51,993 nucleotides of DNA, from NCBI GenBank assembly GCA_005791875.1, contig SXTU01000234.1:1-51993 (forward strand), written 5' to 3'. The stretch comes from Verrucomicrobiales bacterium. GTDB taxonomy: Bacteria > Verrucomicrobiota > Verrucomicrobiia > Limisphaerales > SXTU01. This document shows positions 10,277 through 51,299 of this stretch, piece by piece (within the stretch, counting starts at the first letter, position 1; each line of letters starts with the position of its first letter). The position numbers and the translations under genes were made by a program. Below the pieces are notes generated by a model, which was not told where the DNA came from, did not search any database, and saw only the letters and a program-made list of their open reading frames with translations.

Positions 10277-10351
10277 TGGAATGGCGAGTGGCGAATTTCG
10301 AATGGAGAATCAGTGCGGACGCACGACGAATGATTCGCCATTCGCAATTAA
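10277..10351. repeat. heptad palindrome (GAATGGC/GAATTTC words)
   Basis: The left arm has imperfect 7-bp words (GAATGGC, GAGTGGC, GAATTTC, GAATGGA). The right arm has complementary words (ATTCGCC, ATTCGCA). It fills the entire gap between the pyruvate kinase stop and the next start. Confidence 0.7.
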
Positions 10352-10352
10352 T

Positions 10353-11759
10353 TTACTCCAGCACCCGCATCTGCACCGCGTCAACGATCTGCGTGCCGCT
10401 GGACATGGCGCTGATGATGACGACGGTGTGGCCGCGATGGAGGATGCCGGCGGCCTTCATGTTGGCGAGCGCGACATCAATGTTCTTCTCGGGGTTGTTG
10501 TAGTCGAAGGGGAACACGACTGGCGTGACACCCCAGTTGAGCGCAAGGGAGTCGGCGAGCGGCCACGTCTCGCACACGGCATAGATGGGCGAGAAGCGCG
10601 GGCGCAGCCAAGAGGTCCAGCGTGCCATGTTGCCGCCGCGGGTGAAGACGATGACGGCCTCGGCGCGGAGCTGGTCGGCCATGACGACGGCGCTCTTGAC
10701 GAGTTTCTGGCGCGGGCTGGTCAGCTCGGCGCGCTCGTGATAGCCGGCGTTGCCGCTGCGCTCGATGCGGCGGGCGATCTTGTCGAAGACCTCGATGCAT
10801 TTCACCGGGTATTTGCCCACGGTGGTCTCCCCGGAGAGCATGATCGCGTCGGTCTGCTCGAAGACGGCGTTGGCCACGTCGGTGATCTCGGCGCGCGTGG
10901 GCATGGGGTTCTCGATCATGCTCTCGAGCATGTGCGTGGCGACGATGACGGGCTTGCCGACGCGAAGGCAGATTTTGACGACCTTGCGCTGGATGATGGG
11001 CAGCTCCTCGTAGGGCACCTCGATGCCGAGGTCGCCGCGCGCGACCATGATGCCGTCAGCCTCGGTGATGATCTCGTCAATGTTCTTCACGGCCTGCTGG
11101 TCCTCGATCTTGGCGATGAGCTGCGGGCGATGCTTGGAACCCTGCGTGAGCGCGCGGAGCTGCATGATGTCCTTCGCCTCGCGCACGAAGGAGAGGGCGA
11201 TGTAGTCGACGCCGAGTTCAAGGCCGAGCGCCACGTCAGCGATGTCCTTCGCGGTGAGCGCAGGGAGGCTGACCTTGACGCCGGGGAGATTGATGTGGCG
11301 GCGGCTGCCGAGCTTGCCGGGGGTGAGGACTTCGCACTCGACCTTGTTGTGGTGCTTGGCGAGCACCTTCATGTGGATGGCGCCGTTGTCGAACAGCACG
11401 ACGTCGCCCACGCTGATGTCGCTGACGAAGTGCTCGTAGTTCACGTCCACGGAATGCTCTTCCTCGCTCTTCTCACCGCGCACGGTGAGGGTGAACTTCT
11501 GGCCGGGCTTGAGATCCAGCGGCACGGGGAGGTCTCCGGTGCGGATGGCCGGCCCCTGCGTGTCCATGAGGATCCCGATGGAGCGCTTGCCGGCCTCGGC
11601 GGCGGCGCGGAGATGCTTCACCGTGGCGCGCACCCAGTCGTGCGGCGCATGCGACATGTTGAGCCGGGCGATGTTCATGCCGGCGTCCACGAGCTGGCCG
11701 ATGATCTCCGGAGAACTCGTGGCAGGCCCGAGCGTGGCAATGATTTTGGTGCGGCGCAT
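10353..11759 (-). CDS. pyk: pyruvate kinase
   Basis: 468-residue pyruvate kinase of usual length, transferring phosphate from phosphoenolpyruvate to ADP in the last step of glycolysis. Recognisable elements in order: TKIIATLGPATSS, RLNMSHAPHDW, DTQGPAIRTG, then the B-domain lid, IAKIEDQQAV with the catalytic Lys, MVARGDLGIEVP, THMLESMIENPMPTRAE, and DAIMLSGETTVGKYP, followed by the C-terminal regulatory domain. ATG 11759 (MRRTKII) matches the family N-terminus; an ATG four codons earlier is also possible. It is transcribed away from tRNA-Gln, with the intervening ~145 bp available for divergent promoters. Confidence 0.95.
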   Translation of the reverse strand: MRRTKIIATLGPATSSPEIIGQLVDAGMNIARLNMSHAPHDWVRATVKHLRAAAEAGKRSIGILMDTQGPAIRTGDLPVPLDLKPGQKFTLTVRGEKSEEEHSVDVNYEHFVSDISVGDVVLFDNGAIHMKVLAKHHNKVECEVLTPGKLGSRRHINLPGVKVSLPALTAKDIADVALGLELGVDYIALSFVREAKDIMQLRALTQGSKHRPQLIAKIEDQQAVKNIDEIITEADGIMVARGDLGIEVPYEELPIIQRKVVKICLRVGKPVIVATHMLESMIENPMPTRAEITDVANAVFEQTDAIMLSGETTVGKYPVKCIEVFDKIARRIERSGNAGYHERAELTSPRQKLVKSAVVMADQLRAEAVIVFTRGGNMARWTSWLRPRFSPIYAVCETWPLADSLALNWGVTPVVFPFDYNNPEKNIDVALANMKAAGILHRGHTVVIISAMSSGTQIVDAVQMRVLE

Positions 11760-11905
11760 AAGCGGTGGCATGGGGGAACCCGCGGCTGGCGGCGGCCAGC
11801 GCAACTTGGCCGACGATAGTTGCGCGCCGAGGGAATGAAAGAGCCAAGTGGGGCCTGAAAAACCTTTGCGCGCCCGCGCCCGTTCGCTAGGTTCCCGGCA
11901 CGGTT

Positions 11906-11979
11906 TGTCCGATGGTGTAATGGTAGCACAAGGCCCTTTGAAGGCCTTTGTCATGGTTCGAATCCATGTCGGACAACCA
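11906..11979 (+). tRNA. tRNA-Gln (anticodon TTG)
   Basis: Acceptor TGTCCGA pairs with TCGGACA, the anticodon stem is AGGCC/GGCCT with loop CTTTGAA (anticodon 11938-11940, TTG), the T arm contains GGTTCGAATCC and the CCA end is encoded. Its 3' part from the T arm onward is the attachment site of the island that follows. Confidence 0.97.
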
Positions 11980-20594: not shown

Positions 20595-21866
20595 ATGCAC
20601 TGGATCGCCCCTTCCGAAAAAGACGCCGCCTCCGCCGCGCTGGAAAAGCGCCTCTGGGATGCGGCTGACCAGTTCCGCGCCAACTCCGGCCTGAAGTCCC
20701 AGGAATACTCCGCGCCCGTCCTCGGCCTCATCTTCCTGCGCTTCGGCGAAGTCCGCTTCGCCGCCCAGCGCGCCAAGCTGGAGAAAGTGGCCGCGTCGTC
20801 TCGACGCGGTTCTCGACTCGACGAACCCGCCGCCTATCACGCCGAGGGCATCCTCTATCTGCCCGCCGAGGCGCGGTTCGATTACCTGCTCAACCGCCCC
20901 GAAGCCGAGAACATCGGCGCGAAGGTCAATGCCGCCATGCGCGACGTAGCGAAGTTCGAAGTTCGAGTTGCGAATTCCGAAGTTCCGTCCGTTCGACATT
21001 CGACATTCGTCATTCGCACTTCCCCGGTTCCCGCCTCGCTGGACTACGACGCCTTCGGGCGCATCTACGAATACTTCCTCGGCGAGTTCGCCATGAGCGA
21101 GGGCCAGGGCGGCGGCGAATTTTACACCCCCAGCAGCATCGTCCGCCTCCTCACCGAAGTCATCGAGCCCTACCACGGGCGCATCCTCGACCCCGCGTGC
21201 GGTTCGGGCGGCATGTTCGTCTCGTCCGCCCGCTTCGTGGCGGAACACAAGCGGCAACCTGCCGCTGGGCAATCTGCGGGGAATAGGCCAAAGGACTATT
21301 CCGGTGAACCAACTCGCGAGTTGTCCATCCACGGCGTCGAGAAAACCGACGAAACCGGCCGCCTCTGCCGACTGAACCTCGCCGTCCACGGCCTCGAAGG
21401 TGAAATCAAACACGGCGGCAACATCAACAGCTACTACGACGACCCGCACGACGCCACCCGCCGCTTCGACTTCGTCCTCGCCAACCCGCCGTTCAACGTC
21501 AACGCCGTGGACAAAGAGCGGTTGAAAGACCAAGTGGGATCAAACCGCAGGTTTGCCTTCGGCCTGCCGCGCACCGACAACGCCAATTACCTCTGGATTC
21601 AACTCTTCCACTCCGCGCTCAACGCCAAAGGTCGCGCCGGTTTTGTGATGGCCAACTCCGCCTCCGAGGCCCGCGCATCCGAGCAGGAAGTCCGGCAGAA
21701 ACTCATCGAGAGCCGCGCCGTGGACGTGATGGCCGCACAATGCTGCAATTTGGTGCTTTCATGCCCTTGTGATTCTTCACCCTTCAAGCGTGGAAAAAGG
21801 AGGAACTTCGGCGTGAAACAACACGGAAAAACGAATGATCTTGGATGTAGGAAATGGAGCAAATGA
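20595..21866 (+). pseudogene. hsdM: type I restriction-modification methyltransferase subunit, 3'-truncated
   Basis: 423 codons, of which the first ~383 are HsdM: an N-terminal helical domain (EKRLWDAADQFRANSGLKSQEYSAPVLGLIFLRF), GRIYEYFLGEFAMSEGQGGGEFYTP, the SAM-binding motif DPACGSGGMFVSSARF, and the catalytic NPPF (FDFVLANPPFNV). Homology ends abruptly after SRAVDVMAA near base 21745, where relatives continue into the N-x-F-Y-x-T-x-x-P-C region and ~100 more residues. The final 40 codons are unrelated. The methylation motifs are intact but the subunit lacks its C-terminus and its HsdS partner is absent. A heptad palindrome is inserted in frame at 20950-21020. Its stop overlaps the next ATG (ATGA). 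Confidence 0.85.
20950..21020. repeat. heptad palindrome inside hsdM
   Basis: Left words CGAAGTT, CGAAGTT, CGAGTTG, CGAATTC, CGAAGTT; right words TCGACAT, TCGACAT, TCGTCAT, TCGCACT. It is translated as KFEVRVANSEV...RHSTFVIRTS between AAMRDV and LDYDAFGRIYEY, where HsdM normally has a short linker, and the frame is kept. Confidence 0.75.
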
Positions 21867-26113: not shown

Positions 26114-26306
26114 GCTTGACGCTAACGACATACTCGGTTGCGCGCGGCGCTGGAGCGGCTCAATCCCGCGCTGCCACCCGAGGCCATCACCGCTGCGATT
26201 GATGATTTGACCCGAGACCGTTCGGTCATGGGGCTTCCGGCGGCCAATCGGGAAATCTATCGGCTCTTGAAGGATGGCATTGCCGTGTCGATTGCCGCGC
26301 CAGAAG

Positions 26307-26398
26307 CCCCACCCTCATCCCCGGCCCTTCTCCCAGGGGGAGAAGGGAGAGTAGCCGTTCCCTCTACCTTTGGGAGAGGGATCAAGGGTGAGGGTGGC
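26307..26398. repeat. purine/pyrimidine-rich palindromes inside hsdR
   Basis: CACCCTCATCCCCGGCCC...CTCCC-AGG-GGGAG and CTTTGGGAGAGGG...GGGTGAGGGTG pair across the element. It is translated in frame as a Pro/Gly-rich insert (APPSSPALLPGGEGR... and onward). Confidence 0.65.
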
Positions 26399-35401: not shown

Positions 35402-35754
35402 GGGGGCGCACTGGTTTCGACTTGGGAGATGCGCCAGAGGCGGCATGCCGAGGACGGTTCGTTTGCCTCGTTAATCCTCGAACCAAAACATAGTTGCTAA
35501 CAACGAGTTGGCTCTCGCGGCCTAACGGCCCCGACGTTCACCGGTGGACACCTGCTACGCCGGATGAACGCTACAGCAGGTTAGGTTGCTGACGGGGACC
35601 GCGCGGCAGCAGCCGAAATATTTTCATGCGGACTAAGCAGCGGGTTTCGAGTTCAAGCGCTATCCCGTGGCCGACAATTCACCTTGGACTAAGCATGTAG
35701 TCGCGGCTGGCAATTCCACCAAGGACGGGGGTTCGACTCCCCCCGCCTCCACCA
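35402..35754 (+). ncRNA. ssrA: tmRNA (ssrA)
   Basis: The 5' GGGGGCG pairs with CGCCTCC before the 3' ACCA, forming the tRNA-like acceptor stem. GCACTGGTTTCGACTTGGGA is the conserved tmRNA 5' segment and GGGGGTTCGACTCCCCCCGC is the T arm. The internal reading frame gives the tag. It rescues stalled ribosomes with SmpB. It is a one-piece tmRNA of normal length, between the U32 gene (divergent) and the PQQ-like gene. Confidence 0.95.
35496..35525 (+). other. tmRNA proteolysis tag reading frame (ANNELALAA)
   Basis: GCT-AAC-AAC-GAG-TTG-GCT-CTC-GCG-GCC-TAA. The LAA ending is the degron recognised by ClpXP-type proteases. The resume codon is GCT at 35496, preceded by the usual CATAGTT segment. Confidence 0.85.
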
Positions 35755-40286: not shown

Positions 40287-41570
40287 TTGAAAGCACTCAT
40301 CGCCAACCCCAAGCACAAGGCCCAGCGCGTCTTCCTCGTCGGTGTGGAGTTGAAGTCCGGAACGGAGTGGGAGACCGCCGATTCCATCGCGGAGCTAGAG
40401 GAACTCGCGCGCACCGCCGGCTCGAACATCGTCGGCGAGGGCACGCAGAGGCTGGAGTCCATCAGCCCCGCCACCTTTATCGGCACCGGCAAGGCGGAGG
40501 AATTCGCCGCTAGCTGCCGCGAGTCCAAGGTGGACACGGTCATCTTCGACGACGAGCTTTCGCCCGCCCAGACGCGCAACTTAGAGAAGGTCTTTGACTG
40601 CACCGTGCTTGACCGCACGGCGCTCATCCTCGACATCTTCGCCCAGCGCGCCCGCACGCGCGAGGGCAAGCTTCAGGTCGAGCTAGCGCAGCTTCAGTAT
40701 CTGCTCCCGCGCCTCACGCGTTACTGGACGCACCTCTCGCGTCAGCGCGGCGGCGTGGGCGCGATGGGCGGCGAAGGCGAATCGCAGCTCGAAGTGGACC
40801 GCCGCAAAATCTCCGAGCGCATCTTGAAGCTCGACGAGGAACTCATTCTCGTCCGCCGCCAGCGCGCGACGCAGCGCGCCGGCCGCCAGCGCAACCAGTG
40901 GCCGCTTGCGTCCATCGTCGGCTACACGAACGCCGGCAAGTCCACGCTGTTCAACCAACTCACCGGCGCGACGGTGCTCGCTGAGGACAAGCTCTTCGCC
41001 ACGCTCGACCCGACTACGCGCCGCCTGCGCCTGCCGACGAACCAGAACGTCCTGCTCTCCGACACCGTCGGCTTCATCCGCAAGCTGCCCACGCGCCTCG
41101 TCGAGGCGTTTAAGGCCACGCTCGAGGAAGTCGTGGAGGCGGACCTGCTGTTGCACGTCGTGGACTGCTCGCACCCGCAGGCCGAGGACCAGATTCGCGC
41201 GGTGAACACGGTGCTGGAGGAAATCCACGCTGGGGACAAACCCATTTTGCTCGTGCTCAATAAAATTGACCGCGCCGAGCCTGACCTCGTGGCCCGTTGG
41301 CTGATGCAGCACCCGCGTGCTGTGGCCGTCTCCGCGCGCACGGGCGAAGGTTTCAAGGCGTTGATGGCGGAGCTTGGCACCGCGCTGCGGCCGGTCCGCA
41401 ACTACGTTCAGCTCGCCATCCCGCACGAGCAATCCGCCGTCATCGCCAAGCTCCACGAGGTCGCGCAAATCGTGGAGCGCAACTACCGCGGCAAGGCCGC
41501 GCGCTTCAAGGCCCGCATCCCGCCCCACCTGCACGCGGAGTTCGCGGAGTTTGTGGTGAAGGAGCTATGA
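40287..41570 (+). CDS. hflX: ribosome-associated GTPase HflX
   Basis: 427 residues. The N-terminal HflX domain (FIGTGKAEEF, TVIFDDELSPAQTRNLEK, CTVLDRTALILDIFAQRARTREGKLQVELAQL, then SRQRGG-GA-GGEGESQLE) precedes a TRAFAC GTPase with G1 GYTNAGKSTLFNQL, G2/G3 region LFATLDPTTR and DTVGFI, G4 NKID and G5 SART. It splits stalled or hibernating ribosomes. Start: TTG 40287 (MKALIANPKHK), with alternatives further upstream. It is followed by two repeat elements and then radC. Confidence 0.92.
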   Translation: MKALIANPKHKAQRVFLVGVELKSGTEWETADSIAELEELARTAGSNIVGEGTQRLESISPATFIGTGKAEEFAASCRESKVDTVIFDDELSPAQTRNLEKVFDCTVLDRTALILDIFAQRARTREGKLQVELAQLQYLLPRLTRYWTHLSRQRGGVGAMGGEGESQLEVDRRKISERILKLDEELILVRRQRATQRAGRQRNQWPLASIVGYTNAGKSTLFNQLTGATVLAEDKLFATLDPTTRRLRLPTNQNVLLSDTVGFIRKLPTRLVEAFKATLEEVVEADLLLHVVDCSHPQAEDQIRAVNTVLEEIHAGDKPILLVLNKIDRAEPDLVARWLMQHPRAVAVSARTGEGFKALMAELGTALRPVRNYVQLAIPHEQSAVIAKLHEVAQIVERNYRGKAARFKARIPPHLHAEFAEFVVKEL

Positions 41571-41601
41571 GCGGTCAGCTATCAGCAGTCAGCGGTCAGC
41601 C
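41571..41601. repeat. heptad array (GCGGTCA words) after hflX
   Basis: GCGGTCAGCTATCAGCAGTC followed by AGCGGTCAGCC: four 7-bp words starting immediately after the hflX stop codon. No mirrored arm is evident. Confidence 0.55.
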
Positions 41602-41610
41602 ATGCGCTGG

Positions 41611-41736
41611 CTCCCTCTCCCTTCCTCGGAGGAGGGGAGAGGGTTGGGGTGAGGGGTTACGTGCGTTGGCATTGGCGGCCCCTCCCCTAATCCGGCCTGC
41701 GGCCACCTTCTCCCCTCCTCCGAGGAAGGGAGAAGG
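41611..41736. repeat. 126-bp composite palindromic element, copy 2
   Basis: Same length and layout as 1172-1297. Its two hairpins (tips CCTCGGAGG and CCTCCGAGG) are almost exact reverse complements of one another, so the element can fold as two hairpins or as one long stem. Confidence 0.75.
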
Positions 41737-41793
41737 CGCGCGCGGTGCCCACCGGTTGGCAGGCCAATACCTGGAGCTTGGAGCATTCCCCCC

Positions 41794-42501
41794 ATGAGCG
41801 GTCCGCGCATCAAAGACATCCCCGCCAATGAGCGCCCGCGCGAGCGCCTCGCGGCGAACGGCGCGGACACGCTGGCCAACTCCGACCTCATCGCCATCCT
41901 GCTGCGCACTGGCTTGCAGGGAAAATCCGCACTGGTCATCGGCTCGGAGCTGCTCGCGAAGTTCCAGACCCTCGACCGCCTCTCGCAGGCGTCGGTGAAG
42001 GAACTTTGCGCAGTGAAAGGCATCGGACGCGACAAGGCGGTGACACTTCAGGCCGCGTTCACCCTCGCGCGCCGCATGGCGGCGGAGATTCGCACCGAGT
42101 CGCCGCTGCTCGACACGCCCGAGCGCATCGCCGACCTGCTGCGCGAGGATGCGCGCGGCTACGCGGTGGAGCATTTCCTCGTGCTGCTGCTCAACACGCG
42201 CCGCCGGCTCATCCGTGTGGAACGCATCTCGCACGGCACGCTGGACTCCATCCACGTCCACGCCCGCGAAGTCTTCAAGCACGCCATCGTCGCCAACGCC
42301 GCCGCCATCGTGCTCGTTCACAACCACCCCAGCGGCGACCCGACGCCGAGCGAGGCCGACATCAAAGTCACGCGCGACCTCATCCGCGCCGGGCAGTTGC
42401 TCAAGATTGAAGTGCTGGACCACGTCATCCTCGGCCACCGCACGACGGAGCGGGCGCGAGATTTTGCGTCGCTGCGGGAGTTGGGTTTTTTCTACTCATG
42501 A
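41794..42501 (+). CDS. radC: RadC-family JAB-domain protein
   Basis: 235 residues of normal length. The N-terminal helix-hairpin-helix-like part (IKDIPANERPRERLAANGAD, LCAVKGIGRDKAVTLQAAF) precedes the JAB/MPN metalloprotease-like domain with FLVLLLNTRRRL and the zinc-binding HNHPSGDPTPSEAD near residues 172-187. Despite its name its role is unsettled; suggested functions include processing at recombination intermediates. It lies between repeat elements, with hflX upstream and lpxA downstream. Confidence 0.93.
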   Translation: MSGPRIKDIPANERPRERLAANGADTLANSDLIAILLRTGLQGKSALVIGSELLAKFQTLDRLSQASVKELCAVKGIGRDKAVTLQAAFTLARRMAAEIRTESPLLDTPERIADLLREDARGYAVEHFLVLLLNTRRRLIRVERISHGTLDSIHVHAREVFKHAIVANAAAIVLVHNHPSGDPTPSEADIKVTRDLIRAGQLLKIEVLDHVILGHRTTERARDFASLRELGFFYS

Positions 42502-42511: not shown

Positions 42512-42586
42512 AGTATTCAGTGTTCAGATTGCGGCCCGGTGCGCCCCTTCCGTCACTGCTTACTGAACACTGACTACTGAACACTT
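42512..42586. repeat. heptad palindrome (CAGTGTT/AACACTG words)
   Basis: GTATTCAGTGTTCAG on the left is mirrored by TACTGAACACTGACTACTGA on the right around a ~35-bp GC-rich loop, filling the radC-lpxA gap. Same words as 45382-45487 and 50540-50643. Confidence 0.75.
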
Positions 42587-42591
42587 TCCCC

Positions 42592-43380
42592 ATGCTCCAC
42601 CCCACCGCCCTCATCGCCCCGACCGCGCAACTTGCGCCCGACGTGCAGGTCGGCCCCTACGCCGTCATCGAGGGTCACGTCACGCTCGGCCCCGGCTGCG
42701 TGGTCGGGCCGTTCGTGCATCTCCTCGGGCATACGACCCTCGGCGCGCGGAACCGGATCCACGCCGGCGCGGTTATCGGCGACACGCCGCAGGACTTGAA
42801 ATACAAGGGCGATCCGACGCGCCTGGTCATCGGCGACGACAACATCATCCGCGAGCACGCCACCATCCACTGCTCGACCAAGGAAGACACCGCCACGACC
42901 ATCGGCTCGCACTGCTTCATCATGGGCAACGCGCACGTCGGCCACGACGTGCAGGTGCGGGACCACGCGATTCTGTGCAACGGCATCGCCATCGCCGGCT
43001 TCGCGGTGATCGGCGAGCGCGCGTTCCTCTCGGCGAACTCACTCGTGCATCAGTTCTGCCGCGTCGGTCCGCTGGCGTTGTTGCAAGGCAGCGCAGCGGT
43101 GAGCAAGGACGTGCCGCCCTTCTGCATTGCCACGGGCATCAACTCGATCTGCGGGCTGAACACCATCGGCCTGCGGCGCGGCGGCTTCACTGGAGAGCAA
43201 CGCGCGGAGCTCAAGCGCCTTTACCACCTGCTGTTCCTCAGCGGCAAGCTGCGCCGCGACGCGCTCGTGGAGGCTGGAACGTTCACCACCGGTGAGGCCG
43301 CGAGGCTCCTGCTCGACTTCGTTGCCGCCAGCACGCGCGGCGTCTGCGGTCATGTCAGCGAGCGGCAGCATGAGGAGTAG
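42592..43380 (+). CDS. lpxA: UDP-N-acetylglucosamine acyltransferase LpxA
   Basis: 262 residues of standard length. Hexapeptide repeats of a left-handed beta-helix (IAPTAQLAPDVQVGPYAVIEG...) lead into the catalytic-site region GNAHVGHDVQV near residue 115 (His corresponding to the general base), IGERAFLSANSLVHQFCRVG, and a C-terminal helical domain (GFTGEQRAELKRLYHLLF). It catalyses the first step of lipid A synthesis, so the organism should have an LPS-type outer membrane. ATG 42592 follows the heptad palindrome. No other lpx genes are adjacent. Confidence 0.93.
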   Translation: MLHPTALIAPTAQLAPDVQVGPYAVIEGHVTLGPGCVVGPFVHLLGHTTLGARNRIHAGAVIGDTPQDLKYKGDPTRLVIGDDNIIREHATIHCSTKEDTATTIGSHCFIMGNAHVGHDVQVRDHAILCNGIAIAGFAVIGERAFLSANSLVHQFCRVGPLALLQGSAAVSKDVPPFCIATGINSICGLNTIGLRRGGFTGEQRAELKRLYHLLFLSGKLRRDALVEAGTFTTGEAARLLLDFVAASTRGVCGHVSERQHEE

Positions 43381-43394: not shown

Positions 43395-43690
43395 TGGTTC
43401 CGAACTCCGAAGTTGGCCGCAAAGAACGCAAGAAGACGCAAAAGGGACACGGCATTCCATCACTGGGCTTGGAACTTTTTCCGCCCTCCGCTTGGTCTCC
43501 CGCAATGGCTTCTCTTTGCGCCTCTTTGCGTTCTTTGAGGCAACCCTGTTTCGGACTTCGGGTTGATTCCGAACTCCGAAGCGACCCGGCGGACTGAGAC
43601 CTGTGGAACAGGAGCGGCAGACGGCTGCAATCCAGCGAAACAGGAGACTGCAAGTCTGCGCTGCGATGTCTAGCCGTCTCGACTTCGGAG
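43395..43690. repeat. cluster of palindromic repeats in the lpxA-YfhO gap
   Basis: GCAAAGAACGCAAGAAGACG on the left is mirrored by TCTCTTTGCGCCTCTTTGCG on the right, inside a further pair GAACTCCGAAG...CTTCGG. Then short hairpins (GCAGACGGCTGCAATCC..., AGACTGCAAGTCT) run up to the end of the next gene. They account for the entire 330-bp gap. Confidence 0.65.
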
Positions 43691-43711: not shown

Positions 43712-46216
43712 TCAAGAAAGCCGCGTCCGCCTCCAGAGGACGCCGCAGCCCAGCAGCGTCGCCAGCGAGATGCACGCACCGATGCGGAAGGGCCGGTCCA
43801 CGTAGTCGAGGCGGACGGCGCTCTCGCCGGCGGGAATGGGGATGGCTTGGAAGGCGTGGTTTGCACGGAGCACGGGTGCGGGCTGGCCGTTCACGGTCGC
43901 GCGCCAGCTTGGATAGAAGTTTTGCGCGATCGCCAACCCCTGAGCGGCGTTCACTCGAACATTCAACTCCAAGTGCGCAGGACCGACGCTGGTGACGCGG
44001 GCAGAACCAACCAGCGCGGCGATGTCGGGCGGGCCATAGTCCCACTTCACCCCGCCATTGCCCGTCACCGGCAGTCCGGTGACGAAAGCCTCCCGCTGCG
44101 GGTCCCAGTCTGGCGACATCATCGCCTTGAGTGCCCGGCCCGGCTCTGTTGCTTCAACCGCCTCGGCTGGAAATGTCACCAGTGGCATCGCGTTCGTGCG
44201 GCGTTCCCACTGCATCAGTTCGCCGGGCTTGGTGGTGTGCGTCACGCCGAGGAAGTCCATGAGGTTCGCGGGCGCGGGGTTCGTGGTGCCGTAGAGGAAA
44301 TACTCCACGTCGTTCCACTCGCGCGTCACGAGGGTGGACGCACCGTTCACTTTGGGGAGTCCGTCGAGCAGGTTTAGGTTGCCCCAGAACGCGAGCCGCT
44401 GGCCGATGAAGTCGTCGTAGAACTTCGGCACCATCCGCGTGTGCAGCGCCCGCTCGGCCAGCGGACTGAGCATGAGGCGCGACTCGCCGAGCTTCGGCAC
44501 GGGCGTGAGCGCACCCTTGCTGGCGTGGTAAGCGGCGGCCAGGCCCGGTTCGAAGGCGGAGGCGGGGATGGTGGGGTTGAGGCCTTTGAGGTGAAACACA
44601 CCGTGGGCAGCGACCAGGAGAAGCAACGTGAGTTTAACCGCAATGGACAGCGGGCGCGCGCCGCGAAACTGAGGGACAACCACCATCGCAGCAGCAAAGG
44701 CTAAAACCGCGATGCAACCAGCTATCGAGTTTTGCACATCGCTTGAAACGCGGGACAGCACCGGGAACTGCGTGTTCACCTTGAGGAGCAAAGCACCCAG
44801 CGCTCCAACGGCAGTTCCCACGATCAGGCATTGCTCAAGGATACGAGGGAGCCGCTTGCCATCTTGTAAAACGTCCGCCTCCGCCGCGCGGAGTCGCGCT
44901 TCAAACTCCGCAACTCCCCACGCCGCCAGCAGTGGCAGCGTGAAGGCCGCCAGCAACAGCGCCTTCACCGGGAAGCGCACCACGCCCAGCGGCAGCACTT
45001 CGCGCAGCCAACCCCACAGCACAAAGTTGTCACCGAAGGCCAGCAGCACGGCCAGCAGTGTGGCCGCGCCGAGCAGCTTCACCTCCGGCGTGCGCACGCG
45101 CCACACCGCCAGCAGCGCCAGCGTGAGCGGCACGAGGCCGAGATAGACCGAGGGGAAGAACGCTTGGCTGATCATCACGAACACGCCCTGCTCGGTCTGA
45201 AAGTTCATGAACAGCGGGAAGAACAGGTTCACCCAGCCCCAGCCGGGCAGCGACCAGAACGAGTTCACCGCATCCCCGCTGCGTTGCGAGAGCGAGAGGA
45301 GCTGGAAGAAGGGGAGCAGTTGCGCGGCGCAGAGGCCGGTGATGAGGGCGATGACGGCGGCGAAGCGGCGACCCAGCAGAAAGTGTTCAGTGTTCAGTAT
45401 CCAGTGTTCAGACTTGGCGTTGGGTTGTCCGGGAGGCGCGGGGAATTTTGCATCCTTACTGAACACTGAACACTGAACACTGACCACTTCGGTCAAAGCC
45501 AGTGCCGCGAGAAAACCCCCCGTCAGCAGAATGATTTCCGGCGCGCCGGAGAGCATCTGCATTGCGCCGGCCAGCGCGGCGAGGACGAGGCTTCGCCCGC
45601 CTTCCTGCCACGCGCGCCGTGTGGCGAGCACAACCCACGGCATCCAGCCCAGCGCGACGAGGTAGTTCGGATAGATGACGCAGCTCAGCACCAGCCCGCT
45701 GAAGACGAATGTCACACCCGCCACCGCCGCGCCGAAGCGGCTGCCCGTCCAACGCTCCGCCAGCGCGCGCATCCCCATGCCGCCGAGGAGCAGGTGCGCG
45801 ACGCAGAAGAAACCCAGCGACCACGGAAGCGGGAGGAGCAGGTAGAGGAGCGAGCCGGGGTAAAGGCACAGCGTGTTCCACTGGGCGAGGTAGGGCGCGC
45901 CGCAGTTCACGTAGGGATTCCAGAGCGGGAAGAAATCGCCGTTCCAGAAACACTCGCGATGAAAGAACGCGAATGGGTAGCCGAGGAACCCGTAGTCACG
46001 ATAGAAGAACGCCTCGCCGCCGAAGAGCACGCGCCAGAAAGTGACTGCGAGGAGCGCGGCGAGGATGAGCGCGAAGCGGTTCGGCGTGAGCCAGGTGTCC
46101 GCCGTGCCGGGGTCTGGTGTCTGGGGTCTGGCGTCTGGGGTGGGAGGTTCGGGAGTCACGATGACTTTGGACTTTGGACCTTGGGACTTGGTCTTTTCCA
46201 CCAGAGGAAGCCGCAC
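43712..46216 (-). CDS. YfhO-family integral membrane protein (copy A)
   Basis: 834 residues. After an unconserved repeat-encoded leader come about a dozen membrane helices and the YfhO-type segment FYRDYGFLGYPFAFFHRECF...WNPYVNCGAPYLAQWNT-CLYPGS. A large C-terminal extracytoplasmic part carries NLLDGLPKVNGASTL, FYPSWRATVNGQP and HAFQAIPIPAGESAVRLDYV, then a final helix. YfhO proteins have a GT-C-like topology and are linked to surface glycolipid or polymer glycosylation; the substrate here is unknown. The GTG start at 46216 lies 61 bp inside copy B, within a shared heptad repeat, so the true start may be downstream. It is the last gene of a four-gene tandem. Confidence 0.8.
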   Translation of the reverse strand: MRLPLVEKTKSQGPKSKVIVTPEPPTPDARPQTPDPGTADTWLTPNRFALILAALLAVTFWRVLFGGEAFFYRDYGFLGYPFAFFHRECFWNGDFFPLWNPYVNCGAPYLAQWNTLCLYPGSLLYLLLPLPWSLGFFCVAHLLLGGMGMRALAERWTGSRFGAAVAGVTFVFSGLVLSCVIYPNYLVALGWMPWVVLATRRAWQEGGRSLVLAALAGAMQMLSGAPEIILLTGGFLAALALTEVVSVQCSVFSKDAKFPAPPGQPNAKSEHWILNTEHFLLGRRFAAVIALITGLCAAQLLPFFQLLSLSQRSGDAVNSFWSLPGWGWVNLFFPLFMNFQTEQGVFVMISQAFFPSVYLGLVPLTLALLAVWRVRTPEVKLLGAATLLAVLLAFGDNFVLWGWLREVLPLGVVRFPVKALLLAAFTLPLLAAWGVAEFEARLRAAEADVLQDGKRLPRILEQCLIVGTAVGALGALLLKVNTQFPVLSRVSSDVQNSIAGCIAVLAFAAAMVVVPQFRGARPLSIAVKLTLLLLVAAHGVFHLKGLNPTIPASAFEPGLAAAYHASKGALTPVPKLGESRLMLSPLAERALHTRMVPKFYDDFIGQRLAFWGNLNLLDGLPKVNGASTLVTREWNDVEYFLYGTTNPAPANLMDFLGVTHTTKPGELMQWERRTNAMPLVTFPAEAVEATEPGRALKAMMSPDWDPQREAFVTGLPVTGNGGVKWDYGPPDIAALVGSARVTSVGPAHLELNVRVNAAQGLAIAQNFYPSWRATVNGQPAPVLRANHAFQAIPIPAGESAVRLDYVDRPFRIGACISLATLLGCGVLWRRTRLS
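45382..45487. repeat. heptad palindrome inside YfhO copy A (CAGTGTT words)
   Basis: AAGTGTTCAGTGTTCAGTAT with further words on the left is mirrored by ACTGAACACTGAACACTGAA with further words on the right around a ~45-bp loop. Read in frame as VQCSVFSKDAKF...SEHWILNTEH between two membrane segments. Confidence 0.8.
46108..46195. repeat. two heptad arrays at the copy A/copy B junction
   Basis: GGTCTGGTGTCTGGGGTCTG-type words, then ACTTTGGACTTTGGACCTTG-type words. The second array encodes both the last residues of copy B (PKVQSPKSS) and the first of copy A (KTKSQGPKSK), in two frames. Confidence 0.75.
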
Positions 46217-48771
46217 ACGGCCAAGCCCGTCAGCGAGATTCTGACACCGAGGCGGAACTTTTCATCCACATACACCAGGCGGACGGTGTGCTTTCCCGCC
46301 GGGACGGCGAGGGCTTGGAAGGCGTAGTTCACGCGCCAGAGCTTGACCGGTTGGCCATCCACGAACGCGCGCCACGGGTGGTAGAACGACTGCGCCACGG
46401 TCACGAGCGTCGGGGCGTCGGTCTCGACCTCGGCGAGGATTTCGTGGGCGGCGAAGCGGTGGGTGGTGAGGCGGGCATTGGCAGCGTTGGTGGGGATGGA
46501 GGCTTCGGCTTCGGGCGGGAGGTGGGCGACTTGGCGAGGGTTGAAGTCGGCGGCGAGGAGTTGTGAAAGGGTCTCGATGGCTGGGGTGAAGTGCGGCGCG
46601 GCTCCCGCGAACACGAGTGGCTGCGCGGTCGTGCGGTTGGACCACATCGAACCAGCGAACAACGCGGTCTGCTCCTTGACGCCGAGGAAGTCGAGCAGGC
46701 CCGCTGCGGCCAGAGCGTTCGTGGCACTTGGTGGGTAGAGGCGGCGTTGCAACTCGTCCTGCTCGCGGAGGCGGAGGTTGGAGGAGCCGTTCACTTTGGG
46801 GACGCCGTCGAGCAGGTTGAGGTGCGACCAGCCCGCGCGGAGTTTGCCGGCGAAATCGAGCACTTGGAGATTTAGCGGCGAGGCGGGCACACCGGGTGGG
46901 AGGCGTTGCGGATCCACGTGGCGGCCGTAGAGGAGGAGCTCTTCGTCGGTGGGAGAAATCATGGCGCGACCAGTGGGAAGGGTGGCCAGCTCGGGCTGCT
47001 CAGGGGAAATACCCGCGCGGTTCAGAACCGCTGTGGGGATGCGCGGCGATTGGCTTGGCAGGTGAGAGCAAGCGTCGCCCGCGAGCAAAACGAGAGCGGC
47101 ACCGGCGGCGAGGAGGCGTTCCCGCACTGCGCGCGTGCCGAGGCCGGCCACGATGGCGATGGCTCCGAGCGCAGTCGCCAGCCACGCGAGGCGGACGAGG
47201 GCGTTGGCGCGCGTCTCCGGCCAGCGGTCGTATTGCAGCGGGTGCTGCTGGCCAAGCCAAATTATCAGCGCCACGCCAGCCACGAACGCGAGGGCGATGG
47301 CGAGGAGTGCCGAACTCCGATTCGGCCCGCCACTGGCAGCCGACGACGTGAGGAGGCTTTGACTGGATTCCGCACTCCGCGTTCCGCACTCCGCATTGTT
47401 AGATGTAGCCTCCTCACGTCGGCTGCTACCGCGCAGGAGCCACGCGACGCCGAAGGCGGCAAGCATGGGCACAGTGAAGGCGGCGAGGAGGACGAACTTC
47501 ACCGGGAAGCGCGCGATCCCGCCGCCGGGCAGCAGGTTCTTCAACGCGGTGTAGAGGAAGCCCGCGTCACCGAGGGCTATGATGAGGACGAAGAGTGTCA
47601 CGCCCGCCAGCAGCCAGACACGAAGCTCGCGAAATTTCCACACGGCCAGTAGCGCGAGGGCGAGCGGGGCGAGGCCGAGGTAGTAGCTGGAGAGGAATTG
47701 TTGGTCGTGCTGCACCCAGAAGCCTTGCGGGGTTTGGAAGTAGCGGAAGAGGGGCACGAAGAAATTCGCCCAGCCCCACGGCGGCATCGGCCAGCGGGCG
47801 TCGCGATAGGCGGCGTCGCGCTGCGAGTGGGCGAGGAGGTCGAAGAAGGGGAGGAGTTGCGCGGCGGAGAGGGCGGCGATGAGGGCGATGACGGCGAGAA
47901 AGCGGGTGAGGAGTGAGAAGTGATTGGTGATTAGCGGGCTGGGGTGCGGACGTTCGGAAGCGGTGGGTTGTGGGTGGCTTGCCCCCTCACCCCGGCCCTC
48001 TCCCCCGGTGGGGGCGAGGGGGACCGAGGTCGTGGGTGCTTGGTGCGGTCCGGAGCATTCGTGCGCTGACGGACTTTGGACTCTGGACTTTGGACCTTGG
48101 ACCCATTCGGCAATGAGCATCGCCGCGAGCAGCCCCCACGTCATCGCAACCAACTCCGGCACACCCGTCAGCATCTGCATCGTGCCTGCCAAGGCGGCGA
48201 GGACGAGCTTGCGACCACCTTCGCACCAGGCTTGCTCGGTGAGCAGGATGATCCACGGCATCCAGCCGAGGGCGACGCAGTAGTTCGGCCAGGTGATGCA
48301 CGCGAGCGACGCGCCGTTGAGGGCGAAGGCCGTGCCGGCGACGGCGGCGGCGAAGCGGTTGCCGGTCCAACGTTCCGCCAAGGCGCGCACGCCGAGTCCG
48401 CCGAACCAGAGGTGCAGCAGGCAGAAGACGCCCAGCGCCCACGGCATCGGCAGCGCGACGAAGAAGAGCGAGCCGGGGTAGAGGCACATGGTTCCCCATT
48501 GCGCGAGGAAGGGCGCGCCGCAGTTCGAGAGCGGGTTCCAGAGCGGCAGCTCGCCCGCGCGCAGGCTCTCGCGCAGGTAGTGCGCGGATGGGTAAGCCAT
48601 CACGCCGTAGTCGGAGCGGAAGAAGGTCTCCGTGCCCGCCCAGATGCCGGGGAAGGCGAGGACAAAGGCGAGCAGGAGAAACACGGCGAAGCGGCGCAGG
48701 GTGAACCAGGCGGGCAATTGCGAATTGCGAATTGCGAATTGCGAGTCGGCGATGGGGACGGGGTCGGACAA
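46156..48771 (-). CDS. YfhO-family integral membrane protein (copy B)
   Basis: 871 residues from a TTG start. Same architecture as copy A: N-terminal helix (FAVFLLLAFVLAFPGIW), FFRSDYGVMAYPSAHYLRES, WNPLSNCGAPFLAQWGTMCLYPGS, multiple membrane helices, then HLNLLDGVPKVNGSSNL, FYHPWRAFVDGQPVKLW and NYAFQALAVPAGKHTVRLVYVDE. The first ~20 residues (PIADSQFAIRNSQLPAW) are encoded by a heptad repeat, and two more palindromic clusters are inserted in loops (47335-47430, 47908-48104). It starts 9 bp after the stop of copy C and overlaps copy A by 61 bp, which suggests one transcript. Confidence 0.82.
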   Translation of the reverse strand: MSDPVPIADSQFAIRNSQLPAWFTLRRFAVFLLLAFVLAFPGIWAGTETFFRSDYGVMAYPSAHYLRESLRAGELPLWNPLSNCGAPFLAQWGTMCLYPGSLFFVALPMPWALGVFCLLHLWFGGLGVRALAERWTGNRFAAAVAGTAFALNGASLACITWPNYCVALGWMPWIILLTEQAWCEGGRKLVLAALAGTMQMLTGVPELVAMTWGLLAAMLIAEWVQGPKSRVQSPSAHECSGPHQAPTTSVPLAPTGGEGRGEGASHPQPTASERPHPSPLITNHFSLLTRFLAVIALIAALSAAQLLPFFDLLAHSQRDAAYRDARWPMPPWGWANFFVPLFRYFQTPQGFWVQHDQQFLSSYYLGLAPLALALLAVWKFRELRVWLLAGVTLFVLIIALGDAGFLYTALKNLLPGGGIARFPVKFVLLAAFTVPMLAAFGVAWLLRGSSRREEATSNNAECGTRSAESSQSLLTSSAASGGPNRSSALLAIALAFVAGVALIIWLGQQHPLQYDRWPETRANALVRLAWLATALGAIAIVAGLGTRAVRERLLAAGAALVLLAGDACSHLPSQSPRIPTAVLNRAGISPEQPELATLPTGRAMISPTDEELLLYGRHVDPQRLPPGVPASPLNLQVLDFAGKLRAGWSHLNLLDGVPKVNGSSNLRLREQDELQRRLYPPSATNALAAAGLLDFLGVKEQTALFAGSMWSNRTTAQPLVFAGAAPHFTPAIETLSQLLAADFNPRQVAHLPPEAEASIPTNAANARLTTHRFAAHEILAEVETDAPTLVTVAQSFYHPWRAFVDGQPVKLWRVNYAFQALAVPAGKHTVRLVYVDEKFRLGVRISLTGLAVCGFLWWKRPSPKVQSPKSS
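47335..47430. repeat. 24-bp inverted repeat with heptad array in its loop, inside copy B
   Basis: GGCAGCCGACGACGTGAGGA... is mirrored by ...TCCTCACGTCGGCTGCTACC. The loop contains heptad words (CCGCACT, CCGCGTT, CCGCACT, CCGCATT), so one element family has inserted into or combined with another. Read in frame as GSSRREEAT...AESSQSLLTSSAAS. Confidence 0.75.
47908..48104. repeat. compound palindromic cluster inside copy B
   Basis: Three families in a row: TGATTGGTGATTAG words, a purine-rich hairpin (CCCCCTCACCCCGGCCCTCT ... GGGGGCGAGGGGG), and GGACTTTGGACTCTGGACTT words. Together they add ~65 in-frame residues. Confidence 0.7.
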
Positions 48772-48801
48772 GAGGAGTGATTAGTGATTGGTGATTAGTG
48801 C
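48714..48801. repeat. heptad arrays at the copy B/copy C junction
   Basis: Four GCGAATT words (48717-48743) and GTGATTA/GTGATTG words (48777-48799). They encode the start of copy B and the end of copy C (RVALITNH), including the region of its stop codon. Confidence 0.75.
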
Positions 48802-51207
48802 TACGCGCGGTCGGCTGCGCCACCAGAGCACGATGCACGCGATGAGTCCAAGTGCGGACAGGACGATGCCGAGGCGGAAGCGGCGGTCCACATACTCCAG
48901 TCGCACGGTGCTGCGGCCGGCGGGAACGGGCACGGCTTGGAAGGCGTGGTTGGCACGGAGGATTGTGGCGGGCTGGCCGTTCACGGTGGCTCGCCAAGGA
49001 TGGTAGAACGCTTGTGCAATGACGACCAGCGTGGGCGCGGAGGATTCCACTTCGCACTCGATGCGCTGGGCGGACCACTTGGCGGAGAGCACGCGTGCGC
49101 TGGTGCCGACGGTTTGCAACCGCCGTTCTGCGGGTTCGTTCGCAACAGACGGCGATTGCAAATCGCCGGCACGGGGGACGAGTGCCTTGTCCCACGGATG
49201 GAGGAAAACAGTTTCTGTTGGGATCCAGTTCGTGCCGGCCATTGCGGGCAGGGAAATCTCGGCGGCGGCGAATTCAGGGCGTTGCCCGGCGGTGATGAGC
49301 GGGAGCGAGGTGTCGCGGCGGTGCCACTTGAAGATGTTCGTCGGCGAGCTGACGTGCGCGATGCCGAGGAAGTCCGCGAGCGGGCCGGGCAGCGAGTTGG
49401 TGCCGCCGGACAGAAAGAGGCGCGCCTCGACTTCCTGCTGCGGCCGAAGGTAGAGGCTGAAGATGCCGTCGGTTTTGGCGAGGCCCTCGAGAAGGTTCAA
49501 GTTGTCGTAGAGACCGACGCGCTGGAGCAGGAGCGTGTCGGCGAGGCTGGGGAGCATTTTGCTTTTGAACTCTTTCAGCGCGGCCCAGGTGAGGGACGCG
49601 CGGGCGGTGCCGTCGCGCGGCGCGGGGGTAAGTGCCTGCAAGTCCGGCTGGCCGGGCTGGAGGTAGCCAGGCGGGACACGCGGGGTGAGGTTAGGTAGGT
49701 GCAGCCGCAGGTCGGCAAAAAGCAGGCCCAGCACCGCCAGCGACCACAATGTCTGTCGCCATCGACTCCCGGCGTGCCGCAGACCAAGCACGGCGGCGGC
49801 GGTGAAGACGACGAAGAGTCCGCTGGCCAGCGCGCTGAAGAGGAGAAGCAGTTGCGTTTCCTGGCCCTCGCCCGCGAGCGGATTGAACCAGCCGAGCACG
49901 GCGATGAGCGCGATGGCGGCGGTCATTACGGTGGTAATCGCCCGCAGGCGGTGGCGGGCCATGCGGGAGCGGACTTCGTCCACGGTAGCAGCCGACGTGA
50001 GGAGGCTCTGACTTTCGTTTGGCGTTTCGGGTTTGGAGGTGGGAGTTGAGTCGGAGGCGTCACGGAAGAGCTCCTTGATGGCGAAGGCGGCGAGCATGGG
50101 CATGATGAAGGTGAGCGGGATGATGAACTTCACCGGGTAACGCATGACGCCGAGCGGGAGCACGCGGTCGAACAAGGAGTAGAGGAAGCCGCTCTGGCCC
50201 AACGCCAGCAGGAGGAAAATCGCGCCGAGCAAGGACAGCAGGCGTGAGCGCCGGTCCGAAACCCGCAGCACGGCGAGCAACGCCAGCGCGAGCACGCCCG
50301 CGCCGGCGTAGTAGGACGAGGTCCAGTTCTGGCCGCCGTGCAGTGGCACGCCGGGCGAGGTGAGCACGCAGCGGAACAGTGGCACGAGGTAGTTGGCAAA
50401 GCCCCACGCGGGCAGCGACCATACGGAGTCGCCGAAGCCGGCGTCCCGCTGCGAGTGGCGGAGGAGGTCGAGGAAGGGGAGGATCTGGGCGGCGGAGAGG
50501 AGGGTGACGAGGGCGGCGATCCCGAGGAGGCGGGAGTTTGCAGTATTCAGTAACCAGTGTTCAGTTTTCAGTGCGGGGCGCTCGGCAGACCCGGCGGGTT
50601 CCAAGCGCTCACTGACCACTGAACACTGAACACTGAACACTCCTCTGAGGCTCATCGATCCCAGTAGCAGCCACGTGGACACGATGACTTCCGGCGCTCC
50701 GGTGAGCATCTGCAACGCGCCGACCAGCGCGGCCAAGACGAGTTTTCTCCCGCCTTCGCGGACGCCGTTCTCCACGGTGAGCACAACCCACGGGAGCAGG
50801 CCGAAGGCGGCGATGTTGTTCGGCCACATGAGCGATTGCTGGGTGAGGCCGTGGAACGCATAGGCCACGCCGGCGACGGCGGCGGCGAAGTTCAGGCCGG
50901 TCCAGCGGCGCGCGACGGCAAAAGTGCCGAGTCCGCCCAGCCACAGATGCAGCAGCATGAAAAACCCAAGCGACCACGGCAGCGGCAGAAGCAGGTAGAC
51001 CAAGGAGCCGGGGTAGAGCGTCATTGTGTTCCACTGCGCGAGGAAGGGCAGGCCGCAGTTGTTGAGCGGGTTCCAAAGCGGCAGTTCCCCACGCCAGAAG
51101 CACTCGCGGTGGTAGTGCGCGATGGGGTAGCCGAAAACGCTGAAGTCGCGCAGGACAAAGCTCGCTGAGCCGAGGAGCACGTCAGGCCACGAGGCGAAGA
51201 CAAGCAA
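48781..51207 (-). CDS. YfhO-family integral membrane protein (copy C)
   Basis: 808 residues as opened from a TTG at 51207. Paralogue of copies A and B: VLRDFSVFGYPIAHYHRECFWRGE, WNPLNNCGLPFLAQWNTMTL, many membrane helices, NLNLLEGLAKTDGIFSL, FYHPWRATVNGQPATILRA and NHAFQAVPVPAGRSTVRLEY. Alignment with the paralogues extends upstream of the TTG (LLSPARFAALLALLVFASWP), and the only in-frame codon before the upstream TAA that could serve is a CTG at 51262-51264, so the real start is uncertain. Three repeat insertions are present (49102-49172, 49984-50010, 50540-50643). Confidence 0.8.
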   Translation of the reverse strand: MLVFASWPDVLLGSASFVLRDFSVFGYPIAHYHRECFWRGELPLWNPLNNCGLPFLAQWNTMTLYPGSLVYLLLPLPWSLGFFMLLHLWLGGLGTFAVARRWTGLNFAAAVAGVAYAFHGLTQQSLMWPNNIAAFGLLPWVVLTVENGVREGGRKLVLAALVGALQMLTGAPEVIVSTWLLLGSMSLRGVFSVQCSVVSERLEPAGSAERPALKTEHWLLNTANSRLLGIAALVTLLSAAQILPFLDLLRHSQRDAGFGDSVWSLPAWGFANYLVPLFRCVLTSPGVPLHGGQNWTSSYYAGAGVLALALLAVLRVSDRRSRLLSLLGAIFLLLALGQSGFLYSLFDRVLPLGVMRYPVKFIIPLTFIMPMLAAFAIKELFRDASDSTPTSKPETPNESQSLLTSAATVDEVRSRMARHRLRAITTVMTAAIALIAVLGWFNPLAGEGQETQLLLLFSALASGLFVVFTAAAVLGLRHAGSRWRQTLWSLAVLGLLFADLRLHLPNLTPRVPPGYLQPGQPDLQALTPAPRDGTARASLTWAALKEFKSKMLPSLADTLLLQRVGLYDNLNLLEGLAKTDGIFSLYLRPQQEVEARLFLSGGTNSLPGPLADFLGIAHVSSPTNIFKWHRRDTSLPLITAGQRPEFAAAEISLPAMAGTNWIPTETVFLHPWDKALVPRAGDLQSPSVANEPAERRLQTVGTSARVLSAKWSAQRIECEVESSAPTLVVIAQAFYHPWRATVNGQPATILRANHAFQAVPVPAGRSTVRLEYVDRRFRLGIVLSALGLIACIVLWWRSRPRVALITNH
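49102..49172. repeat. 70-bp inverted repeat built of hairpins, inside copy C
   Basis: GTGCCGACGGTTTGCAACCG... is mirrored by ...GGCGATTGCAAATCGCCGGCAC. Each arm is itself a hairpin of the 1621-1650 type. Read in frame as RAGDLQSPSVANEP...RRLQTVGTS. Confidence 0.7.
49984..50010. repeat. single arm of the 24-bp inverted-repeat family, inside copy C
   Basis: GGTAGCAGCCGACGTGAGGA followed by GGCT, with no opposite arm. Read in frame as SQSLLTSAATV. Confidence 0.65.
50540..50643. repeat. heptad palindrome inside copy C (CAGTGTT words)
   Basis: CAGTATTCAGTAACCAGTGT with further words on the left is mirrored by CTGACCACTGAACACTGAAC with further words on the right around a ~40-bp loop. It lies at the equivalent protein position to the insertion in copy A (45382-45487) but with a different loop sequence. 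Confidence 0.8.
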
Positions 51208-51269
51208 CGCGAGCAGGGCGGCGAAGCGGGCGGGCGATAGTAAGTTGGCGGCTGGAGAGTTCAGGGAGA

Positions 51270-51299
51270 GTGATTAAGGAATCAGTGTCCAGTTTTCAG
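51270..51299. repeat. heptad remnant at the copy C/copy D junction
   Basis: GTGATTAAGGAATCAGTGTC followed by CAGTTTTCAG. It encodes the last residues of copy D (GPLKTGH) and supplies its stop. Confidence 0.55.

Follow-up and report, generated by a model that had tools for sequence, protein, structure and literature searches.

Palindromes with arms of degenerate heptanucleotide words in genes and gene gaps of a Verrucomicrobiales bacterium, and their changing words in relatives

Heptanucleotide repeats are known from cyanobacteria as short tandemly repeated repetitive (STRR) sequences, and Rickettsia palindromic elements are palindromes inserted in frame in protein genes, forming sequence families of one genus. 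Here, we describe repeats in a 51,993-nucleotide (nt) stretch of a Verrucomicrobiales bacterium (contig SXTU01000234.1, positions 1 to 51,993 of the forward strand; hereafter the window), namely palindromes whose arms are arrays of degenerate 7-nt words, termed heptad palindromes. Like the Rickettsia elements, they are found inside protein genes, yet their arms are heptad arrays with changing words. The arms keep a period of 7 and are shared between sites, the same site carries different words or no element in related genomes, and the stems bear no mark of selection for pairing in mRNA.

The accessible sections of two papers describe heptanucleotide repeats with a unit of 7 nt that are largely intergenic, and the excess of heptamers in bacteria had already been noted, with citations reaching back to 2007 (PMC4692102, PMC4679880). 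Examples are the TAACTGA arrays (MacGregor 2015, PMC4679880) and the GGGNATC arrays of Xanthomonas and Nostoc (Rehm et al. 2015, PMC4692102). In two species of Xanthomonas, most of the latter arrays are flanked by the same genes and vary in length and sequence. Rehm et al. stated that heptameric repeats had no detailed literature in 2015, and both papers report a proposal by others that polymerase contacts are the reason for 7 nt. These sections deal with direct repeats and mention inverted ones in passing, whereas the elements described here are palindromes with exchangeable words. The nearest relative in architecture is stem P6b of the Nostoc tRNA-Leu(UAA) group I intron, which, as far as the accessible text goes, is built of the heptads TDNGATT (Class I) or NNTGAGT (Class II) (Kaasalainen et al. 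2015, PMC4476775). As here, the 7-nt motifs of that stem are matched by complementary ones, its length varies by 7 and 14 nt, and one motif class repeatedly replaces the other at the same site, from which the authors inferred replacement of the whole region. Unlike here, P6b is one cyanobacterial intron stem with two word classes, while the heptad palindromes occupy many chromosomal sites with dozens of words, in protein genes and at gene junctions rather than in a tRNA-Leu intron (the tRNAs of the window lie elsewhere), and some sites are empty. Finally, repetitive extragenic palindromes (REPs) and their paired form, REPINs, are palindromic, of high copy number and dispersed, mostly extragenic with some intragenic copies, and fall into GTAG and CGTC families with stems of 5-13 base pairs (bp) and loops of 2-20 bp; GTAG REPs have been reported in the Planctomycetes-Verrucomicrobia-Chlamydiae (PVC) superphylum, all according to the accessible part of PMC3733652. 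Heptad palindromes are likewise palindromic, dispersed and numerous. Instead of short stems with a GTAG or CGTC tag, they have long arms made of words, and no tag is common to them. By title or abstract, no paper in the open-access literature searched treats heptad palindromes with changing words as a class found across a chromosome; the heptamer excess and the replacement in Nostoc P6b are already known.

An earlier note, made from the sequence of the window alone, had listed 15 places with such arrays and called eight of them two-armed. These were scored together with 47367 and 48071, both from Tandem Repeats Finder (TRF), the period-7 score being the best match count within a 14-position stretch and the control being 300 random 130-bp stretches of the window. 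The period-7 order was borne out, with scores of 10-14 of 14 at 14 of the 15 noted loci (10 at 30929 and 42512) and 9 at 51270; a score of 11 was attained by 3.0% of the random stretches. The two-armed architecture was recovered at seven of the eight places so called (10277, 30929, 33136, 34632, 42512, 45382 and 50540), where the inverted-repeat (IR) score is at least 12, a value found in 3.7% of random window stretches. The eighth, 20950, scores 9 (imperfect 24-nt arms, 17-nt loop), and scores of 6-11.5 at the other seven agree with their description in the earlier note as one-armed or mixed, the scored inverted repeat at 41571 being that of an adjoining CCCTCTCC-type palindrome. The loci of the window are as follows.

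10278-10350, unstranded: heptad palindrome made of GAATGGC words, on the downstream side of the gene for pyruvate kinase (10353-11954, minus strand); IR 14, period-7 11/14
20950-21022, unstranded: imperfect heptad palindrome, words CGAAGTT / TTCGACA, in open reading frame (ORF) 20595-21866 (TRF); IR 9, period-7 13/14
30930-30991, unstranded: intergenic heptad palindrome, word AGTGATT; IR 12.5, period-7 10/14
32425-35253, minus strand: host gene of a peptidase U32 (PF01136, PF12392), 942 amino acids (aa), with five occupied sites A-E (profile matches and orthologue alignment)
33132-33227, minus strand: heptad palindrome, word GGTGACA, U32 site E (orthologue comparison)
33375-33500, minus strand: CCCTCTCCCC-type palindrome, not heptad, U32 site D; heptad palindromes there in G004 and G005
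33971-34005, minus strand: one-armed heptad array TTCCGCG, U32 site C (TRF)
34239-34311, minus strand: mixed element of a CGGCAAT array and a CGCGGAA array, arms unpaired, U32 site B (TRF and orthologue comparison)
34638-34710, minus strand: heptad palindrome, word GGTGACA, U32 site A (orthologue comparison)
41563-41600, unstranded: one-armed heptad array AGCGGTC beside the CCCTCTCC-type palindrome (41605-41744) (TRF)
42512-42585, unstranded: TCAGTNN heptad palindrome between ORFs 41794-42501 and 42592-43380 (scoring and congeners)
45381-45489, minus strand: heptad palindrome TCAGTNN in the YfhO-like gene 43712-46216 (scoring)
46109-46189, minus strand: two one-armed arrays, GTCTGGC and GACTTTG (TRF)
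47335-47430, minus strand: GTAG-type, REP-like palindrome whose loop holds, at 47367-47397, the one-armed heptad array TTCCGCACTCCGC (TRF and scoring)
47905-47934, minus strand: one-armed heptad array, AGTGATT type (scoring)
48071-48104, minus strand: one-armed heptad array GGACTTT (TRF)
48713-48800, minus strand: two one-armed arrays, AATTGCG and AGTGATT (TRF)
50542-50641, minus strand: heptad palindrome TCAGTNN in the YfhO-like gene 48781-51207 (scoring)
51269-51301, minus strand: weak one-armed array, TCAGTNN type; period-7 9/14

Each heptad consists of a conserved core of 4-5 nt and two to three adjacent variable nt, as in TCAGTNN, and in 229 arrays variable positions adjoin one another within the heptad 1030 times against 790 +- 28 by chance. 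Sixty distinct palindromes were counted at a score of at least 11, with arms of 11-45 nt and loops of around 20-45 nt. Tandem 7-nt units also exceed expectation in wider samples, as in heptanucleotide repeats of the STRR or long simple sequence repeat (LSSR) type. In a 269-kb sample of the host genome (a 4.7-Mb draft in 314 contigs; window included), 37 period-7 arrays were counted where Markov controls gave 1.7; periods divisible by neither 3 nor 7 gave 0-4 arrays, and periods 6 and 9 also exceeded controls (17 and 16 versus about 2). Samples from five congeneric genomes (269, 520, 178, 200 and 200 kb, 1.37 Mb in total), counted with slightly different code, held 36, 100, 12, 16 and 27 period-7 arrays, the runner-up period giving 16, 20, 7, 13 and 7, so that 7 is the top period between 4 and 15 in all five. 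These samples contain 168 strict heptad arrays, in which 81 different words occur. Of these arrays, 69 have an inverted partner (score at least 12; median loop 34 nt, 10th percentile 17) against 5 of 336 random segments, again far above control. By simple gene calls, 105 of the 168 lie in genes, 60 between genes and 3 at edges. The earlier note had also held that such arrays can be read through in any frame as a peptide repeat. They are indeed tolerated in coding sequence, but 24 of 103 in-gene arrays contain stop triplets; 36 of the 37 such triplets on the sense strand are out of frame, a position mostly forced because the arrays lie inside ORFs.

The comparison of orthologous sites carries the main finding. 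The peptidase U32 gene was compared in nine of the eleven congeners (G000, the genome of the window, included; G002 and G007 left out). At site A, paired heptad arms are made of GGTGACA in G000, GCGGTCA in G008 and G010, GTTCAAA in G005, AATGCGA in G003 and GGTCGAG in G004, while G009 is one-armed (GAATTGC) and G001 (TCAGTGT) and G006 (GGTGACA-like) are weak. Site B has GATTTAC-type words in G008, G009 and G010 (by eye, those of G008 and G010 fit the TDNGATT of Nostoc P6b), and GGTCGAG-type words in G003 and G004. At this site, G000 and G001 each have a CGGCAAT array that does not pair, G005 has a GTAG-type palindrome and G006 has nothing clear. Site D carries CCCTCTCCCC palindromes in G000, G003 and G009, a worn copy in G008 and heptad palindromes in G004 and G005, and at site E the GGTGACA palindrome of G000 is faced mostly by one-armed arrays in the other congeners. 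G008 and G009 are 94.7% identical over 3648 bp at this locus, yet have unrelated elements at site A. Outside the genus, in four other families of the order, heptad palindromes occupy site A in G012, G015 and G027 and sites B and D in G039; G017, G023, G034 and G036 have short or unstructured loops where anchors located the sites, the anchors missing 11 of 30 genome-site pairs. Paired complementary heptad arms that differ between relatives at the same site, as in Nostoc P6b, are thus seen here in a protein gene, and the orthologues share positions but mostly not sequences, which is not the picture of ordinary drift.

Gaps between genes repeat this pattern and add empty sites. In the pyruvate-kinase gap, GAATGGC-type elements also occur in G004, G005 and G010, and none is apparent in G002 and G006; by eye, G007 and G003 have palindromes of 6-nt words there (L040, L041; AGTAAG/ATTAGG; CTCATC), four other genomes having 7-nt words. 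The gap L122:19441 of G005 shows heptad order (12-14 of 14) in all seven congeners and pairing arms (13-30) in six, the arms of G003 (6) not pairing, with five word families, assigned by eye, in the seven genomes. At L115:8775, G005 and G003 share one family, G000 has another and G004 is composite, whereas the gap is empty in three of seven genomes (G001, G007 and G010), where only a short distance separates stop and start; empty and filled alleles show no obvious target-site duplication, although their edges have diverged. Two of six genomes (G003, G004) have no element at L115:14145, and G001 has a shrunken copy with a loop like that of G005; L115:10583 was left out of the classification. 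The gap at 42512-42585, flanked by ORFs that we take, by our own reading and no profile search, to be RadC-like (41794-42501) and LpxA-like (42592-43380), has TCAGT- or TTAGT-type words in nine of ten genomes (own included) and a degenerate stretch in G006.

Left arms complement the right arm of their own genome better than the one that another genome has at that site. The score is 16.1 within genomes (n=50), 9.1 across genomes (n=354) and 6.3 when shuffled (p 7e-11), with L122:19441 scored for three of its seven genomes; at that gap taken alone, it is 18.4 within (n=7) and 10.9 between genomes (n=42). Arms of one family also align between different sites (39 versus 14 shuffled; 38 versus 11 shuffled), and by eye AAGCTCC copies share an irregular AAAGAA/AGAGAA interruption, so a common origin of arms across sites is indicated. 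Loops at different sites are little above shuffled (13.5 versus 12.3, p 0.02; 15.6 versus 13.7, p 5e-5). At the same heptad site, loops of orthologues align if the word family is the same (mean z 3.67, 7 of 19 above 2) and hardly if it differs (0.29, 7 of 90 above 2; p 4e-4), and without pairs among the sisters G008-G010 the values are 1.64 (3 of 15) and 0.25 (6 of 88; p 0.011); this comparison excluded the lpxA gap, and same-family pairs tend to be closer relatives. Exchange of the arms together with the loop is therefore favoured, though only partly shown, by these alignments. A search for loops captured from elsewhere gave 79 matches at E<0.05 for 52 loops in the 1.37 Mb, on inspection mostly heptad remnants within long loops or 14-20-nt matches, and no clear source.

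Taken together, we give an even chance to the reading that these are several families of dispersed non-coding palindromic elements with degenerate heptad arms and site-particular loops, selfish or neutral and with rapid turnover at fixed permissive sites. The arrival step we infer: elements would come in by some activity, perhaps acting on single-stranded hairpins at replication forks, and would settle where they do little harm, in co-directional stop-to-start gaps, in loops of tolerant proteins and in loops of older palindromes. Their arrays could then grow and shrink in 7-bp steps by slippage until old elements decay or the next arrival overwrites them. The mobile or self-propagating element of the earlier note, tolerated in coding sequence, is in line with the different words at one site, the shared arms, the empty gaps (three of seven and two of six genomes) and the 29 of 60 palindromes that lie in genes. 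Its suggestion of template switching as maker of the second arm fared worse, as variable letters are not mirrored between arms (4.40 versus 4.36 permuted, p 0.31) in 73 elements chosen by core letters only, and the two arms of an element resemble each other no more than they resemble arms of other elements on the same contig stretch. A first test of such ordered arm-to-arm copying, on 38 elements, had given p 9e-7 but was biased by choosing elements on their own score and was dropped.

Several points weigh against turnover by arriving elements. Neither a target-site duplication nor an excision product nor a dedicated enzyme came to light. Six of nine genomes have an insert of 108 or 111 nt at U32 site A irrespective of its word, and the site-A element of G009 starts as in the more distant G003 and unlike its sister G008, which suggests allelic exchange. 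Copies of a family hardly share loops, which is unexpected for whole-element copying and leaves either old copies whose arms were kept alike or arms spreading without the loop; even among orthologous loops of one family, 12 of 19 do not align, in a test whose low power leaves room for word change in place. In 3 of 11 congeners, a 92% complete genome among them, no PF01797 transposase, the candidate mover discussed below, was detected. Moreover, all genomes are drafts, and word families were assigned by eye.

The strongest rival is word change in place without mobility, where slippage by 7 nt homogenises the heptads, fold-back template switching keeps the arms complementary and the words drift. 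The constant length of the site-A insert despite its different words would follow readily, as would the related words TGTTCAG/TATTCAG/TTTTCAG/TGATTAG at the gap 42512-42585 and the 14-bp, two-heptad difference in one arm between G000 and G008/G009 there; the polymerase-contact proposal reported in the accessible part of PMC4679880 would supply a reason for the unit. Nevertheless, gaps without any element and arms common to several sites, down to an irregular interruption, do not fit well, and neither do the unmirrored order of variable blocks in the unselected set and, more modestly, the poorer alignment of loops across a change of word. We therefore regard evolution in place as possible but rather unlikely.

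Less probable still, in our view, are pan-bacterial mobile palindromes that propagate by the heptad word or the arm and not as whole elements. An activity with a 7-nt register would then write or copy heptads into both arms of hairpins, each genome in its dialect, and would change the words at fixed sites while the loop stayed particular to its site.

Variable letters form a dialect common to the elements of one stretch, whereas the two arms of an element are not specially alike: in 16 stretches with at least three elements each (58 elements), the share of identical blocks is 0.133 within an element, 0.211 with another element of the same stretch and 0.122 with another stretch. As a hint of local spreading too weak to build on, pairs with the same word are enriched at 0.3-5 kb (35 of 296 versus 19.9 expected, p 0.017), and at 5-20 kb they number 23 of 447 versus 24.9 expected. 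As for breadth, the pattern CAGTNNYCAGTNNYCAGT, 22-52 nt, ACTGRNNACTGRNNACTG matched at least 118 stretches in GTDB r220, where fewer than 0.01 matches are estimated by arithmetic to arise by chance. The 80 matches listed, most of them metagenome-assembled genomes, span, judged by record titles, 11-12 phyla depending on the taxonomy used and include Planctomycetota, Bacteroidota, Acidobacteriota, Chloroflexota, Cyanobacteria (Anabaena, Microcystis, Scytonema), Poribacteria, Alpha-/Gammaproteobacteria, Deltaproteobacteria, Verrucomicrobiota, Patescibacteria, Clostridia and Chlorobi. With the matched elements masked, the 80 loci, chosen for having an element, gave 110 arrays at period 7 and 15 at the next period. 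In IMG/VR, searched with one word only, the inverted period-7 pattern matched 117 stretches and the direct one 84, and period-6 and period-8 patterns of the same word gave 0 matches. Four IMG/VR loci were laid out and have palindromes at many gene junctions; in L287, L295 and L299, these are TCAGTNN palindromes whose loops share AAGGCAAA-type letters by eye, and the three contigs may be chromosome fragments rather than virus. A common word core across phyla was rejected as proof of horizontal transfer, as any 5-nt core should recur among so many arrays and words.

That the heptads derive from, or travel with, GTAG-type REPs moved by REP-associated tyrosine transposases (RAYTs, Y1) is quite unlikely. 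As far as the heptad palindromes go, the earlier note was right to exclude known REP units. However, REP-type palindromes with a GTAG tag are also present in the window, one of them enclosing the array at 47367. They lie at 7774-7842, 26957-27034, 47335-47430 and near 49991 (GTAGCAGCCGACGTGAGGAGGC...), and 21 REP-like ones, 19 with the GTAG letters, were seen in the 1.37-Mb sample. Period-7 order occurs in the loop region of 9 of these 21 (two-armed 3 of 10, one-armed 6 of 11; the stretch tested was the loop, or 70 bp where one arm was found) against 89 of 2000 random 50-bp stretches. This order also counts for the main reading given above. Hairpin loops thus appear to be landing or growth sites, and as landing sites they would let one family take over the place of another. 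In addition, PF01797 matches 8 of 11 congeners, and GTAG REPs are on record for the PVC superphylum (accessible part of PMC3733652). In contrast, the printed heptad palindromes with their flanks have no common GTAG/CGTC foot on inspection, without a count, and with arms measuring 11-45 nt and a loop of 34 nt at the median, they exceed the REP ranges. The PF01797 profile has no match in G001, G003 and G009 (82, 92 and 80% complete); RAYTs are no more than a candidate for the sole mover.

Replacement mostly by homologous recombination between species, bringing in other alleles while true insertion is rare, seems very unlikely, for although the start of the site-A element of G009, resembling distant G003 instead of sister G008, speaks for it, a source of many unrelated alleles would be needed, the five families in seven genomes at one gap must still originate, and arms shared between unrelated sites stay unexplained.

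The placement of the elements and the mismatches in their stems speak for the main reading above. The 60 palindromes comprise 29 in genes, 25 between co-directional genes, 4 in convergent and 1 in a divergent gap, and 1 at an edge; gaps of at least 60 bp are by length 57% co-directional, 28% divergent and 15% convergent, so divergent gaps are avoided (1 of 30 intergenic palindromes versus 28% of gap length, p 0.0007). In 54 oriented stems, sense-strand mismatches comprise 51 G.U, 74 A.C and 99 others. Selection for an RNA hairpin would spare G.U, yet no such sparing is seen; the symmetry is therefore likely to reside in DNA folding rather than mRNA folding, and selection at the mRNA level is disfavoured. 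Functional RNA hairpins for translation coupling, mRNA stability or termination between genes are accordingly hardly credible, despite the co-directional stop-to-start gaps and the many occupied junctions of some IMG/VR contigs, given the lack of a G.U excess, the 29 of 60 palindromes inside genes and the gaps without an element.

The heptad palindromes point to a poorly described, fast-changing class of DNA repeat, one word of which reaches 11-12 phyla in palindromes among the matches listed. Through them, conserved proteins, for example peptidase U32, acquire peptides that change rapidly. One genus already gives a comparative series of same site, different words and empty sites, so the origin of the heptads can be tested in close strains.

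Other features of the window include three consecutive YfhO-like genes and part of a similar fourth (43712-51974), with several heptad insertions. Palindromes of the CCCTCTCCCC/GGGGAGAGGG kind, possibly of 6-nt words, lie at 26309-26397, 33375-33500 and 41605-41744, one of them at the U32 site that has heptads in two relatives, and a palindrome of CGCAAAGAA-like units lies at 43416-43541. An Rfam search of the window gave three matches above the gathering score, none at the heptad loci, namely a tmRNA (35402-35754) and two tRNAs (4131-4203 and 11906-11976). The R subunit of a Type I restriction enzyme (PF04313, PF11867) is encoded at 26138-29455. Finally, GC-rich repeats of 21/42 bp form an array at 798-1007, and a 354-bp repeat is present 3.9 times with 87% matches at 22346-23739, within an ORF of 1419 aa (21854-26113).

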